Positions 8,803 through 13,270 of a stretch of DNA of 24,787 nt are shown here, one piece after another. Positions within the stretch are counted from its first letter, which is position 1, and each line of letters begins with the position of its first letter. Where the stretch lies: NCBI RefSeq assembly GCF_946479715.1, contig NZ_CAMLHF010000069.1, forward strand, positions 1-24,787. Reading direction: 5' to 3'. The notes below the pieces were generated by a model. That model did not search any database. It had not been told where the DNA came from and saw nothing but the letters and a program-made list of their open reading frames with translations. Source of the stretch: an uncultured Pedobacter sp. (lineage in GTDB: Bacteria; Bacteroidota; Bacteroidia; Sphingobacteriales; Sphingobacteriaceae). A program made the translations under genes and the position numbers.

Positions 8803-9207
8803 ATGTATTTAGAATACGTCAATACTGAAACGCTCTTTTTGTTTACCACTCCAGAAGTAGAATACATTCGCCTGACGCCGGATGTGCAGTTGGTGGACAG
8901 GCTGGAAAGGCTAATTGAGGTTGATTTTAGACAGCATAAGAACCGGTTGTTTTATGCGAGGAAATTGGAGATTTCGATATGTAGCTTGGATAAGTTAGCA
9001 AAGGCTCATTTAGGGAAATCGGTATATGAGTTGATACAGAATAGGGTTCATGAAGAGGCGAAAAGGTTGCTTCGCGGGAGTGGGATTTCTATTAAAGAGA
9101 TTACGTATGAGCTTGGGATTTCTGATCAGGCGTATTTCTGTAGGTGCTTTAAGAAGATTACGGGGCTGACGCCGCGGGGGTATAGAGTGAAAGAGAGGGG
9201 TTTTTGA
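8803..9207 (+). CDS. Short AraC-type helix-turn-helix regulator
   Basis: A 134-residue protein whose C-terminal ~100 residues are an AraC/XylS DNA-binding domain: two helix-turn-helix units, the second reading 'SIKEITYELGISDQAYFCRC' followed by the family motif F-K-K-I-T-G-L-T-P-R-G-Y-R. The usual ~170-residue ligand-binding domain is absent; only about 35 residues precede the DNA-binding part. It is either a minimal regulator or one that takes its signal from the preceding 128-residue protein, 22 bases upstream. The stop codon lies inside the palindrome beginning at 9201. Target genes are unknown. Confidence 0.85.
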   Translation: MYLEYVNTETLFLFTTPEVEYIRLTPDVQLVDRLERLIEVDFRQHKNRLFYARKLEISICSLDKLAKAHLGKSVYELIQNRVHEEAKRLLRGSGISIKEITYELGISDQAYFCRCFKKITGLTPRGYRVKERGF

Positions 9208-9231
9208 GGTCGCAATTTGCGACCTCAAAAA
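9201..9231. repeat. Palindromic element copy 1 (core GGTCGCAATTTGCGACC)
   Basis: Perfect 15-bp arms (9201-9215 and 9217-9231) around a single central T. The core at 9208-9224 is shared with three other sites (9247, 9966 and 10339). The T-run precedes the stem and the A-run follows it, so the runs pair with each other; a standard intrinsic terminator would have T after the stem. The AraC stop codon TGA (9205-9207) lies in the left arm. Confidence 0.85.
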
Positions 9232-9237
9232 AGAAGC

Positions 9238-9272
9238 AACTGAACTGGTCATAATCTGTGACCAGTTCAGTT
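9238..9272. repeat. Palindromic element copy 2 (hairpin with core GGTCATAATCTGTGACC)
   Basis: Perfect 14-bp arms at 9238-9251 and 9259-9272 with a 7-base loop. The centre, at 9255, is 39 bp from the centre of copy 1. The core at 9247-9263 fits the same consensus as copy 1, but the outer arm sequence differs (AACTGAACT against TTTTTGA), so the core and the symmetry are conserved while flanks are not. No T-run follows. It could terminate or protect transcripts or bind a dimeric protein. Confidence 0.8.
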
Positions 9273-9324
9273 CAATGAAGCATTTAATAGCTAAACCAAT
9301 AAATTTCATGTGAAAAATAAAAAA

Positions 9325-9861
9325 ATGATGAAACCGATTTTATTAATAGTAACAGTATTTTTTGCACAAACCATTTTTGCTCAACAAAAATTTGGGCATG
9401 TAAATGTGGAGTCTGTTTTTTTAGCCATGCCCGAGGCAAAGAGTGCACAGACGAATCTTGAAGCGTTTAGTAAATTGAAAAGTGATGAAATAGATAAGAT
9501 GCAAAAGGAGTACCAGATAAATTATGATAATGCTGTTGCCAAGAATAAGACGTTAAATGAGTCAAACAAGGATGTCGTATTAAAGGAACTTGAAGTGTTG
9601 TCTATTGAGCTGGAATCTTTGAAGAAACGAATTGAGGACGCGGCCAAAAAAGCTCAAGAGGAGGTGATTAGGAGACAAGGGGAACTTTTTACACCAGTAA
9701 ACGCAAAGTTTATGACGGCGTTAAAATCTGTTTATAAGGAAAAAACTTTAAGTTATGTATTCTCTGTATCAGGTCGTGAGGGAGATAGCAACTTGTTATT
9801 GTGGGACAATGGAATAGATCTAACTGAAGATGTTAAAAAGAAATTGGGGTTGTCTAAATAA
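9325..9861 (+). CDS. OmpH/Skp-family periplasmic chaperone-like protein
   Basis: A 178-residue exported protein with signal peptide M-M-K-P-I-L-L-I-V-T-V-F-F-A...I-F-A-Q, then 'FGHVNVESVFLAMPEA', the usual OmpH opening, a charged coiled-coil of about 80 residues (the Skp tentacle region), and a final part with 'YVFSVSGREGDSNLLLWDNG' and L-T-x-D-V-x-x-K-L-G. In-frame GTG at 9310 is an alternative start adding five residues; the ATG at 9325 (or 9328) gives a more standard signal. Family members hold unfolded outer-membrane proteins in the periplasm. The usual bamA or lpx neighbours are absent, so this is probably a paralogue with a specialised role. Confidence 0.88.
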   Translation: MMKPILLIVTVFFAQTIFAQQKFGHVNVESVFLAMPEAKSAQTNLEAFSKLKSDEIDKMQKEYQINYDNAVAKNKTLNESNKDVVLKELEVLSIELESLKKRIEDAAKKAQEEVIRRQGELFTPVNAKFMTALKSVYKEKTLSYVFSVSGREGDSNLLLWDNGIDLTEDVKKKLGLSK

Positions 9862-9941
9862 AGGGTTTAAGGTTACGGAGCAGATGACTCGGGGGATAGG
9901 AGGTTGGGAGGACTTAGTGGTAGATTTAATATTTAGACTGG

Positions 9942-9988
9942 AGAATGAAGGAGAGGGGTTTTTGAGGTCACAATTTGTGACCTCAAAA
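9942..9988. repeat. Palindromic element copy 3, within a 47-bp repeat of 9184-9230
   Basis: The palindrome has 14-bp arms (9960-9973 and 9975-9988) around a central T; the core at 9966-9982 is GGTCACAATTTGTGACC. With its left flank, the stretch 9942-9988 matches 9184-9230 at 43 of 47 positions at a constant offset of 758. Two of the four differences are compensatory (9212 G to A, and its partner 9220 C to T). Read in the frame of the AraC gene tail, the flank encodes R-M-K-E-R-G-F-stop against R-V-K-E-R-G-F-stop at 9184. It lies in the 272-base gap between the OmpH-like and ORF6N genes, where no convincing gene was found. Confidence 0.85.
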
Positions 9989-10075
9989 GAAAACAGAAGG
10001 GAACCACGTTGGAAGTTCTTTGAAAATATTGGGGTTTTTATCAAATATTTTATTATTGGTATAAAATATATCTTT

Positions 10076-10106
10076 TTGGTTAATTTATGGCTTTTGTATA
10101 TGTTTG
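10076..10106 (+). promoter_or_regulatory. Bacteroidota-type promoter for the ORF6N gene
   Basis: A perfect -7 box TATGTTTG (10099-10106, consensus TAnnTTTG) is preceded after 20 bases by TTG (10076-10078). The start codon at 10134 follows 27 bases after the -7 box. Spacing fits the known TTG-N19-ish-TAnnTTTG pattern of this phylum. Confidence 0.6.
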
Positions 10107-10133
10107 TTTTAGCATTTAGGCTACAAATTAAAT

Positions 10134-11009
10134 ATGACGGCAATAGAAGCAATCACTCAGGAAACGATACAGAATAAGATTTTTACGATTCGTGGTAAAC
10201 AGGTAATGATTGATAGGGATTTGGCGGTGTTGTATGGGGTAGAGACGAAAGTACTTAATCAGGCGGTTAGGCGAAATTTAGACAGATTTCCTGAAAATTT
10301 TATGTTTCAGCTTAACAAAGAAGAGTTTGAATCTTTAAGGTCACAATTTGTGACCTTAAAGGACAATAGAGGGGCTCATAGTAAATACTTATCTACTGTT
10401 TTTACTGAGCACGGAGTATTAATGCTCAGCTCTGTATTAAGAAGTGAAACTGCATTGAAAGTAAGTATTCAGATTATGAATGCGTTTGTAGAGATGAGGA
10501 GGTTTTTGAGGGATAATGCGGAGGTGTTTGTAAGGTTGGAGAATGTGGAACGGAAACAGCTTAGGGCTGATGAGAACTTTGATAAGATCTTTAATGCATT
10601 GCAAAGTAAGGAGTTGAAACCGAAGCAAGGTATATTCTATGATGGGCAGGTATTTGATGCCTATAGTTTTATAGCTGATTTGGTGAGGGAAGCGAAGACA
10701 TCAATTGTGCTAATTGATAACTACGTTGATGATACGGTACTTCGATTATTTGCTAAACGCAAACAAGGCGTTTCATTGACCATTTATACCAAAAAGGACT
10801 CTATACTTAATTTGGATATAGTTAAATATAAAACCCAATATGGCCCCGTTGGGGTTAAAGAATTTAAAGCTTCGCATGATAGGTTTTTGATTCTGGATGG
10901 TACGGTGGTTTATCACATCGGTGCTTCTTTAAAGGATTTGGGGTTGAAATGGTTTGCGTTTTCGAAAATGGAGATTGCAGCTCTGGATTTGTTAAGTAAA
11001 ATAAGATAA
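10134..11009 (+). CDS. ORF6N-domain protein with C-terminal phospholipase-D-like half domain
   Basis: A 291-residue cytoplasmic protein. Residues about 8-120 form an ORF6N/KilA-N-like DNA-binding domain known from phage and chromosomal antirepressor-type proteins: 'IRGKQVMIDRDLAVLYGVET', R-F-P-x-x-F-M-F-Q-L, then F-T-E-H-G-V-L-M-L-S-S-V-L. A charged helical linker follows (about 120-160). Residues 165-285 contain 'SIVLIDNYVDDTVLRLF' and S-H-D-R-F-L-I-L-D...Y-H-I-G-A-S-L-K-D-L-G, resembling a PLD-type half site in which the H-x-K is H-x-R. The protein is presumably a regulator whose effector part binds nucleic acid or phosphate. Its own promoter (10076-10106) precedes it. Residues 67-76 (S-L-R-S-Q-F-V-T-L-K) are encoded by a perfect palindrome. 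Confidence 0.85.
   Translation: MTAIEAITQETIQNKIFTIRGKQVMIDRDLAVLYGVETKVLNQAVRRNLDRFPENFMFQLNKEEFESLRSQFVTLKDNRGAHSKYLSTVFTEHGVLMLSSVLRSETALKVSIQIMNAFVEMRRFLRDNAEVFVRLENVERKQLRADENFDKIFNALQSKELKPKQGIFYDGQVFDAYSFIADLVREAKTSIVLIDNYVDDTVLRLFAKRKQGVSLTIYTKKDSILNLDIVKYKTQYGPVGVKEFKASHDRFLILDGTVVYHIGASLKDLGLKWFAFSKMEIAALDLLSKIR
10333..10361. repeat. Palindromic element copy 4, inside the ORF6N coding sequence
   Basis: Perfect 14-bp arms (10333-10346 and 10348-10361) around a central T; the core at 10339-10355 is GGTCACAATTTGTGACC, identical to copy 3. It encodes L-R-S-Q-F-V-T of the ORF6N domain. Read in a suitable frame, intergenic copies 1 and 3 also encode L-R-S-Q-F-(A/V)-T-S-K, so the repeats resemble a fragment of this domain's coding sequence. 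Confidence 0.85.
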
Positions 11010-11130: not shown

Positions 11131-11162
11131 CAAGAGATCTCTCCTATCGTCGAGATGACGAA
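11131..11162 (-). repeat. 32-bp dispersed repeat, inverted copy of 13195-13226
   Basis: By eye, 11131-11162 is the exact reverse complement of 13195-13226 over 32 bases. Here only one half of the element is present; at 13195 it forms one arm of a long hairpin. It contains the motif CGAGATGACG, which seeds the adjacent minisatellite. Confidence 0.85.
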
Positions 11163-11295
11163 GCGATAATGAGATGACGAAGTGATAATGAGATGACGAA
11201 GTGATAGCAGGATAACGGGAGGGGACGACTTGGCGATAGTGAGATGACGGAGAGGGATGACGGGACGATAATGAGATGACGGGAAGGGATGATGA
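11152..11295. repeat. GAGATGACG minisatellite
   Basis: Copies of GAGATGACG or close variants begin at 11152, 11171, 11190, 11209, 11241, 11254, 11273 and about 11287. The first steps are exactly 19 bases (unit GAGATGACGAAGTGATAAT); later steps vary (32, 13, 19, 14). Unit sequence decays towards the right. Long ORFs across it are repeat artefacts. The gene at 11341 starts 46 bases after the array. Confidence 0.75.
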
Positions 11296-13194: not shown

Positions 13195-13270
13195 TTCGTC
13201 ATCTCGACGATAGGAGAGATCTCTTGTTCAGGTATAGTTCAAGAGGTCTCTCTCTGCGTTCGAGATGACG
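13195..13270. repeat. Long imperfect hairpin repeat (full element)
   Basis: CGTCATCTCG (13197-13206) and CGAGATGACG (13261-13270) are perfect outer arms. The inner parts (13207-13226 and about 13239-13260) pair imperfectly, giving a stem of about 30 bp around a loop near 13227-13238. Its left arm with two flanking Ts is the 32-bp sequence found inverted at 11131-11162. This type of palindromic intergenic repeat resembles REP/BIME-like elements. It begins 4 bases after the DUF6266-like stop and could stabilise or end that transcript. Confidence 0.8.

Follow-up and report, generated by a model that had tools for sequence, protein, structure and literature searches.

Why should a short inverted repeat lie within the coding sequence of a gene and recur in the DNA beside it? 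The question is raised by a stretch of 24,787 nucleotides from an uncultured Pedobacter sp. (contig NZ_CAMLHF010000069.1; hereafter the window), in which an earlier note had pointed out a 17-bp palindromic core at four places, starting at positions 9208, 9247, 9966 and 10339, the last of them inside a gene for an ORF6N-domain protein. All four copies were found there, and with up to three mismatches allowed the core gave nine strand-matches in the window against a shuffle mean of 0.32. The note had offered two readings: an operator placed inside the gene of the protein that recognizes it, or fragments of ORF6N genes that spread as small elements. We find that conservation of the pairing at the DNA level, beyond the need of the protein, is strongly present in the ORF6N palindromes, and we tentatively favor the view that the palindrome acts in cis as a DNA site for its gene, the most likely reader being the DNA-binding protein that the gene encodes.

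The palindrome inside ORF6N genes

The window protein matches the ORF6N profile of Pfam with 119.2 bits against a gathering score of 27.8 and thus belongs to that family. Its in-gene palindrome, at codons 67-76, encodes S-L-R-S-Q-F-V-T-L-K, which agrees with the L-R-S-Q-F-V-T that had been read there, and a homologous palindrome site is present in ORF6N relatives. A protein search with peptide patterns that avoid the site recovered 80 ORF6N loci from many phyla; many come from metagenome-assembled genomes, and single organism names may be wrong. In most of the parsed genes, an inverted repeat with arms of about 12 bp (roughly 10-15) and a 3-nt loop lies between the FQL and FTEQGV segments, and several different arm sequences are represented; the first parse of the relatives left out open reading frames (ORFs) without the downstream motif.

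The same pattern was repeated in samples drawn with the Pfam profile, which found ORF6N in 32 of 118 genomes from the phylum of genome G001, 35 of 118 from that of G035 and 27 of 119 from that of G043 (these should be Bacteroidota, Desulfobacterota and Planctomycetota). From the first phylum 30 loci and 20 further stretches were taken, holding 53 of the 55 ORF6N matches, and from the other two the best 30 of 106 and the best 30 of 58 matches. The best hairpin reached a score of at least 8 in 168 of 203 ORF6N ORFs (75/85, 43/54, 30/37 and 20/27), against means of 3.2, 1.2, 0.6 and 1.2 in ten synonymous-codon shuffles per gene, the best hairpin anywhere in the ORF being counted. At a score of at least 12 the counts were 33/85, 19/54, 22/37 and 11/27, against shuffle means of 0.00, 0.10, 0.00 and 0.00. 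Most hairpin centers lie 45-57 nt before the FTEQGV motif, while some distances of -36 nt arose because the motif matched the wrong place. Extra copies have been gained and lost in frame, and 10 of the 158 parsed genes have at least two tandem in-frame copies at a score of 8.

A search with Phage_pRha gave four matches, all overlapping known ORF6N places, and a viral search with a short ORF6N protein found no relative. Two Segatella copri plasmids of 2955 and 4140 bp (L475 and L476) are annotated only with a replication protein and an ORF6N gene, and both ORF6N genes contain an intragenic palindrome, whose sequence is different again. Some plasmid ORF6N genes have no palindrome at a score of 9; on a Parabacteroides plasmid (L481:2495-4228) three tandem ORF6N genes stand beside leuS, with no palindrome at this score in any of them.

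Pairing of the arms

Sites were collected in two ways. Selection on the inner 5 bp covered 203 ORFs and gave a site in 142 of them (131 distinct), the remaining 61 including many in which the search motif for the FTEQGV segment found no match; pairs 6-12 were formed in 105-125 of the 131, where column composition would predict 53-88, and pairing drops from pair 13, which gives a unit of about 27 bp. Selection on the peptide only, which is blind to pairing, used 127 of 158 genes and gave 115 distinct sites, the 31 unanchored genes including sites in a second reading frame. All 12 pairs were formed in 52 of these sites, 11 in 39, 10 in 18 and fewer in six; that is, at least 10 of 12 Watson-Crick pairs are kept in 109 of the 115. 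Pair 9, which occurs as G-C, A-T and C-G, was paired in 110 of 115 sites, whereas 2,000 shuffles gave a mean of 67 and a maximum of 79. To limit the effect of common descent, covariation was counted in 53 disjoint pairs of nearest relatives (636 positions): both arms had changed at 110 positions, where independent change would give 29.1, and a single arm at 52; 93 of the 110 led from one Watson-Crick pair to another. Identical arms had been collapsed beforehand, which raises the change rate on both sides of this comparison, and pairs 1, 2 and 5 are nearly invariant and thus uninformative.

The coding strand can form a stable stem with a triloop, as would suit an mRNA hairpin that pauses translation or is the target of an RNase or another protein. 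However, an mRNA stem should favor G·T mismatches, and these are not favored over A·C, with 17 versus 35 at pairs 3-12 of the peptide-chosen sites and 30 versus 37 at pairs 6-12 of the inner-5-bp set; at pair 9, where the codons would permit G·T, none of the 115 sites has it. The mismatches therefore point to the DNA rather than to an mRNA hairpin. What points toward RNA is a T·G at pair 8, which most of the second-frame sites share (G·T in nine, A·C in one), and altogether we regard a role in the mRNA as improbable. A known RNA of the Rfam type was rejected for the palindrome, the window giving no Rfam match at gathering scores, and so was an intrinsic terminator role of the intragenic copy, as the terminator scan listed only the 9247 copy (minus strand) among the four.

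The second-frame sites also bear on another proposal, in which LRSQFVTS is required in the protein and the palindrome arises as a side effect of the codons for this peptide. The peptide is indeed partly conserved in the family, but synonymous shuffles abolish the hairpins and the arms co-vary, by which the peptide was rejected as the sole cause. Furthermore, 14 sites of the inner-5-bp set are in a minor frame; three of these lie off the site, and in the other 11 peptides like ELVTNCDRF take the place of LRSQFVTS, 10 of the 11 having the same GGTCRCA core. A different peptide in another frame is thus encoded by the same DNA core, and the codon explanation is hardly credible. The earlier note had named orthologues that encode L-R-S-Q-F-V-T with non-palindromic codons as an outcome against it; the orthologues were instead found to keep palindromic codons beyond the need of the protein.

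Distribution of the core and of similar palindromes

The earlier note had proposed a search of the whole genome; mapped through the genomes of relatives, the core proved to be rare elsewhere, which is the outcome that the note had listed first among those against it. In 44 genomes chosen for their ORF6N locus the core was found at 37 places in 28 genomes, 34 of them inside an ORF6N ORF, and in 60 genomes from the genus of G001 at 35 places in 26 genomes, 28 of them inside ORF6N ORFs; G001, which has a core match, belongs to both sets. The GGTC core, the only one to which this count applies, occurs at 0-3 places per genome in both sets, on which ground a dispersed repeat of the repetitive extragenic palindromic (REP) type was rejected. 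The core pattern read backwards had no match in either set, and in all core matches but one, with A..C, the bases at the two free inner positions complemented each other.

The outside copies amount to 3 of the 37 and 7 of the 35 places. Of the nine that were compared with ORF6N, one (L138) borders directly on a broken ORF6N gene (E 4e-7), L134, L142 and L145 gave weak ORF6N matches (E 0.04-0.4), and no match was obtained for L082, L089, L113, L141 or the second L146 copy. Five of the ten outside places (L082, L089, L134, L141 and L146) are at most about 150 bp from an ORF6N ORF. Among 120 core copies listed from viral contigs, two are in ORF6N ORFs. A number of the other viral copies are hairpins with A/T-rich flanks, and the intergenic core hairpins of three phage contigs (L152, L191 and L226) have an A-rich flank before and a T run after them, unlike the ORF6N sites. 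Near-identical intergenic palindromes of the form GAACTTATCACA-NTT-TGTGATARGTTC were seen in two genomes, one between two integrase genes (L480:1863-1891) and the other upstream of ORF6N in L003.

The features of the window are collected in Table 1. Perfect arms of at least 13 bp had been ascribed to every copy; counted outward from the 3-nt loop, this holds for those at 9208 (14), 9966 (13) and 10339 (13) but not for that at 9247, which has 16 pairs with one mismatch. Similarly, the intergenic copies had been read as L-R-S-Q-F-x-T-S-K, which is correct for 9208 and 9966 (F-L-R-S-Q-F-[AV]-T-S-K), whereas the 9247 copy has a stop in that frame and gives E-L-V-I-I-C-D-Q-F in its readable frame. 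When all six-frame peptides of the window were compared with a profile built from 13 ORF6N proteins of the second-frame type, the 9247 copy fell within a relic of the second-frame type, with the 9208 copy directly beside it, and the 9966 copy within a weaker relic candidate. The stretches around 9208 and 9966 share 47 of 58 bases, and local duplication therefore did occur. Because of these profile matches and shared bases, the intergenic copies are probably in the main leftovers of broken ORF6N genes, with some local duplication. The notion of ORF6N fragments that spread as small elements is borne out to this extent, by the 9247 relic, by L138 and by the duplication, but the outside copies are few, and those other than 9247 and L138, where tested, gave weak matches or none. 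Elsewhere in the window, a 32-nt inverted repeat with 100% complementarity and its halves 2 kb apart (11131-11162 and 13195-13226) adjoins GATGACG-type repeats at 11154-11281.

Table 1. Palindromes, ORF6N gene and candidate ORF6N relics in the window.
Feature	Position	Strand	Remark
Palindrome, 14-bp perfect arms (9208 copy)	9201..9231		3' end of AraC-type gene
Relic, middle of ORF6N gene (KKEATELVIICDQFSSMKHLIAKPINF)	9227..9307	+	Profile match E 9e-5
Palindrome, 16-pair arms, one mismatch (9247 copy)	9238..9272		Second reading frame; arms of another class
Possible second ORF6N relic (DLIFRLENEGEGFLRSQFVTSKENRREPR)	9923..10009	+	Profile match E 0.067, suggestive only
Palindrome, 13-bp perfect arms (9966 copy)	9960..9988		~150 bp upstream of ORF6N start
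ORF6N-domain gene, 291 aa	10134..11009	+	Pfam PF10543 E 9.4e-35; AlphaFold and Foldseek
Palindrome inside ORF6N coding sequence, 13-bp perfect arms, loop ATT	10333..10361		Residues 67-76

Palindromes of this kind were also found in other gene families. Among 860 other ORFs (150-500 aa) near ORF6N genes, nine reached a score of 12, and seven of the nine look like RhuM or DUF1016 as judged by eye from the sequence, one of them (L018) being confirmed as DUF1016/YhcG by Pfam. We compared 29 genes each of RhuM, DUF1016 and Bro-N at the best-matching loci in 118 genomes of the phylum of G001 (the best 30 of 57, 30 of 97 and 30 of 32 matches, respectively). A score of 8 was reached by 19 of 29 RhuM genes (shuffle 0.85), 18 of these 19 at one site, by 18 of 29 DUF1016 genes (shuffle 0.65) and by 7 of 29 Bro-N genes (shuffle 0.8), six of the seven in a single Bro-N subgroup of 11. 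In RhuM, DUF1016 and the Bro-N subgroup the palindrome is mainly at one site per family, with distinctive arm sequences in RhuM and in the Bro-N subgroup. Pairs 1-8 of these three families are left out of account, since pairing at them was a condition of selection. The loop ends of the DUF1016 palindromes co-vary in 16 of 26 cases against 11.0 expected.

In Escherichia coli K-12, the DUF1016 gene yhcG contains three consecutive palindromes, with 12 pairs and one mismatch, 16 pairs and one mismatch, and a perfect 15 bp. We compared 11 hand-picked alleles, and in addition two truncated ones and one with an IS2-type insertion elsewhere in yhcG. The arms of the first palindrome are AATTCGCCAGAC, AATTGTGCAGAC or AATTCTCCAGAC, with perfect pairing in 10 of the 11 alleles and one mismatch in K-12, and several adjacent pairs have changed together between alleles. 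The middle palindrome is below a score of 7 in L494, L497, L498 and L502-L504, and the length of the array varies between strains: L495 has a single copy in frame, and L496 has a similar loss and is frameshifted there. Some of the alleles may be imports, since up to 13% of the 285 nt preceding the array differ between them. In the two truncated cases (L492 and L493, from two strains), the yhcG match ends at base 406, within the last bases of the third palindrome, and a small transposase gene lies downstream of the cut-off gene. Altogether, 4,417 of 5,426 E. coli genomes match yhcG, 3,310 of them over at least 80% of the gene, and the L494-type stretch is present in 462 of the 5,426 at 80% coverage.

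Two serious rivals have to be weighed against these patterns. The first is a selfish palindromic element, a short hairpin comparable to the Rickettsia palindromic elements (RPEs). It would enter a tolerant loop of these genes without shifting the frame, form tandem copies there and be replaced in the course of time. The in-frame tandem arrays, the second reading frame, the hypervariable flanks of the ORF6N palindrome between near relatives, the copies outside genes and the variable length of the yhcG array are as such an element would leave them. It is less easily reconciled with a palindrome that sits mostly at one site in one family, with 34 of 37 and 28 of 35 core places in ORF6N ORFs and a hairpin in 168 of 203 of these ORFs, and we consider it unlikely. 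The second rival is a functionless palindrome that perpetuates itself, hairpin-templated mutation (quasi-palindrome correction or template switching) copying one arm onto the other. Strict pairing with free base identity, the joint change of adjacent pairs between E. coli alleles and the perfect or near-perfect palindromes in or beside relics would all follow. However, as only nine of the 860 other flank ORFs reached a score of 12, seven of them RhuM- or DUF1016-like, ordinary genes do not keep palindromes by self-templating, and the recurrence in four families needs another cause. Moreover, several E. coli alleles have a degraded middle palindrome in yhcG, and arm correction is therefore not automatic. 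Arm copying without function thus seems quite unlikely.

A predicted site of the gene's own product

We return to the view that the palindrome is a site for the product of the gene that contains it. The repeat would then be a two-fold target, or one that forms a hairpin or cruciform, and its predicted recognition by the gene's own protein would give autogenous control or self-processing. This is suggested by the DNA-binding and nuclease families concerned, by the near confinement of the palindrome to the gene, by a core kept in two reading frames and by the mobility of these genes as single ORFs. The site may be placed within the ORF because single-ORF genes that turn up in unrelated operons cannot rely on a fixed promoter. 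An AlphaFold model of the window protein (41 sequences, mean predicted local distance difference test score, pLDDT, of 81, predicted template modeling score of 0.46) places the palindrome-encoded residues where a predicted helix (62-73) ends and a loop modeled with low confidence begins (pLDDT 60 for the block 71-80). The modeled C-terminal part has a fold like that of phospholipase D (PLD), with Foldseek matches to NucT, other PLD-family structures and TrmBL2; the protein has no sequence relative in the PDB at E 1.

The gene neighborhoods fit with single-ORF mobility. In 12 loci, chosen partly because they hold RhuM or DUF1016, the ORF6N gene adjoins type I restriction-modification genes in five, standing between HsdM and HsdS in L018, L023 and L013 and next to one or the other in L039 and L052, and lies inside a NeuB/epimerase operon in L026. 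The neighbor proteins examined at the six other loci gave no type I restriction-modification or NeuB/epimerase genes. ORF6N also matches phage anti-repressor families, and among the candidate defense systems of PADLOC matches were obtained to PDC-S05 (ORF6N, RhuM) and PDC-S02 (DUF1016); these models describe the host proteins, and no link to palindromes was seen in them.

Several observations weigh against recognition by the gene's own product. Thirty-five of the 203 ORF6N ORFs have no hairpin at a score of 8, the loop ends of the ORF6N palindromes do not co-vary (85/131 against 83.7 expected), and the DUF1016 arms are too varied for a single consensus. Over the whole set, arm similarity hardly follows protein similarity (Spearman 0.09 for the N part and -0.01 for the C part in 8,911 pairs), whereas the N and C parts correlate with each other in the same pairs (0.33); of 265 ORF6N ORFs found, 158 were parsed and 134 used, a few with wrongly picked sites (e.g., L015 and L072). 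When at least 9 of 12 pairs were required, which removes the wrongly picked sites and leaves 127 of the 134, identical arms made up 43% of the pairs with 80-90% flank identity and 75% of those above, compared with 0-6% of the pairs under 80%; that is, arms are alike among close relatives and show no trend below 80%. The core can vary between copies within a single gene (L023 and L024), although such copies are on average slightly more alike than copies from different genes (9.25 versus 8.31 of 12; n = 12 and 198). Finally, hairpins with a score of at least 8 are present within 400 bp upstream of 11 of 84 ORF6N genes and downstream of five of 84, several with other cores; the upstream ones being rare, a promoter operator is not the rule. 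The in-gene operator proposed by the earlier note thus has the DNA-level conservation which it requires, strongly so, but the arms hardly follow the protein beyond close relatives, and its simple sequence-specific form is at odds with the differing cores within one gene.

A known precedent for the arrangement is the O gene of phage lambda, which contains the iteron sites that its own protein reads. The ORF6N-type sites are likewise palindromic, sometimes tandem and within the gene of their predicted reader. In contrast to lambda O, the ORF6N-type genes show no sign of being replication initiators, and the sequence of their site drifts while the pairing stays. PLE RepA and Odn of phage ICP1 read semi-palindromic iterons of about 30 bp (PMC8263062). 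RPEs (Ogata et al., 2000, 2002, as cited in PMC4316617) are about 100-150 nt long and occur in intergenic regions, functional RNAs and coding sequences of Rickettsia; both they and the ORF6N palindromes are palindromic DNA in frame inside ORFs that are not disrupted. The ORF6N-type unit differs in its length of about 27 bp, in occupying mainly a single site per family, in a few gene families and across several phyla, with 0-3 core places per genome, and in its co-varying arms, and the GGTC core shows no RPE-type dispersal over many unrelated genes and intergenic regions. REPs (PMC3733652) are also short palindromes (20-40 bp), but high-copy and extragenic, whereas the ORF6N palindromes are low-copy and intragenic. 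No description of such palindromes in ORF6N genes was found in the open-licence papers searched, an absence that is not proof.

It is possible, although we suggest it with caution, that ORF6N, RhuM, Bro-N and DUF1016 represent mobile single-ORF genes for DNA-binding or nuclease proteins that carry their own predicted recognition or processing site within the ORF, in the form of an inverted repeat constrained to pair, and that the array also drives rapid change or on/off switching of the variable loop of the protein. Such a gene would be recognized by its own product wherever it has landed, and several of the families are candidates for phage defense. The question can be tested now in E. coli, since yhcG of K-12 has three copies of the palindrome and thousands of sequenced strains carry the gene. 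If the hypothesis is true, several gene families have preserved, over long evolutionary distances and with clear covariation, information at the level of DNA that is superimposed in register on the protein code at a single site. It would represent a second code within genes for proteins, one that is likely to be connected with candidate anti-phage functions.

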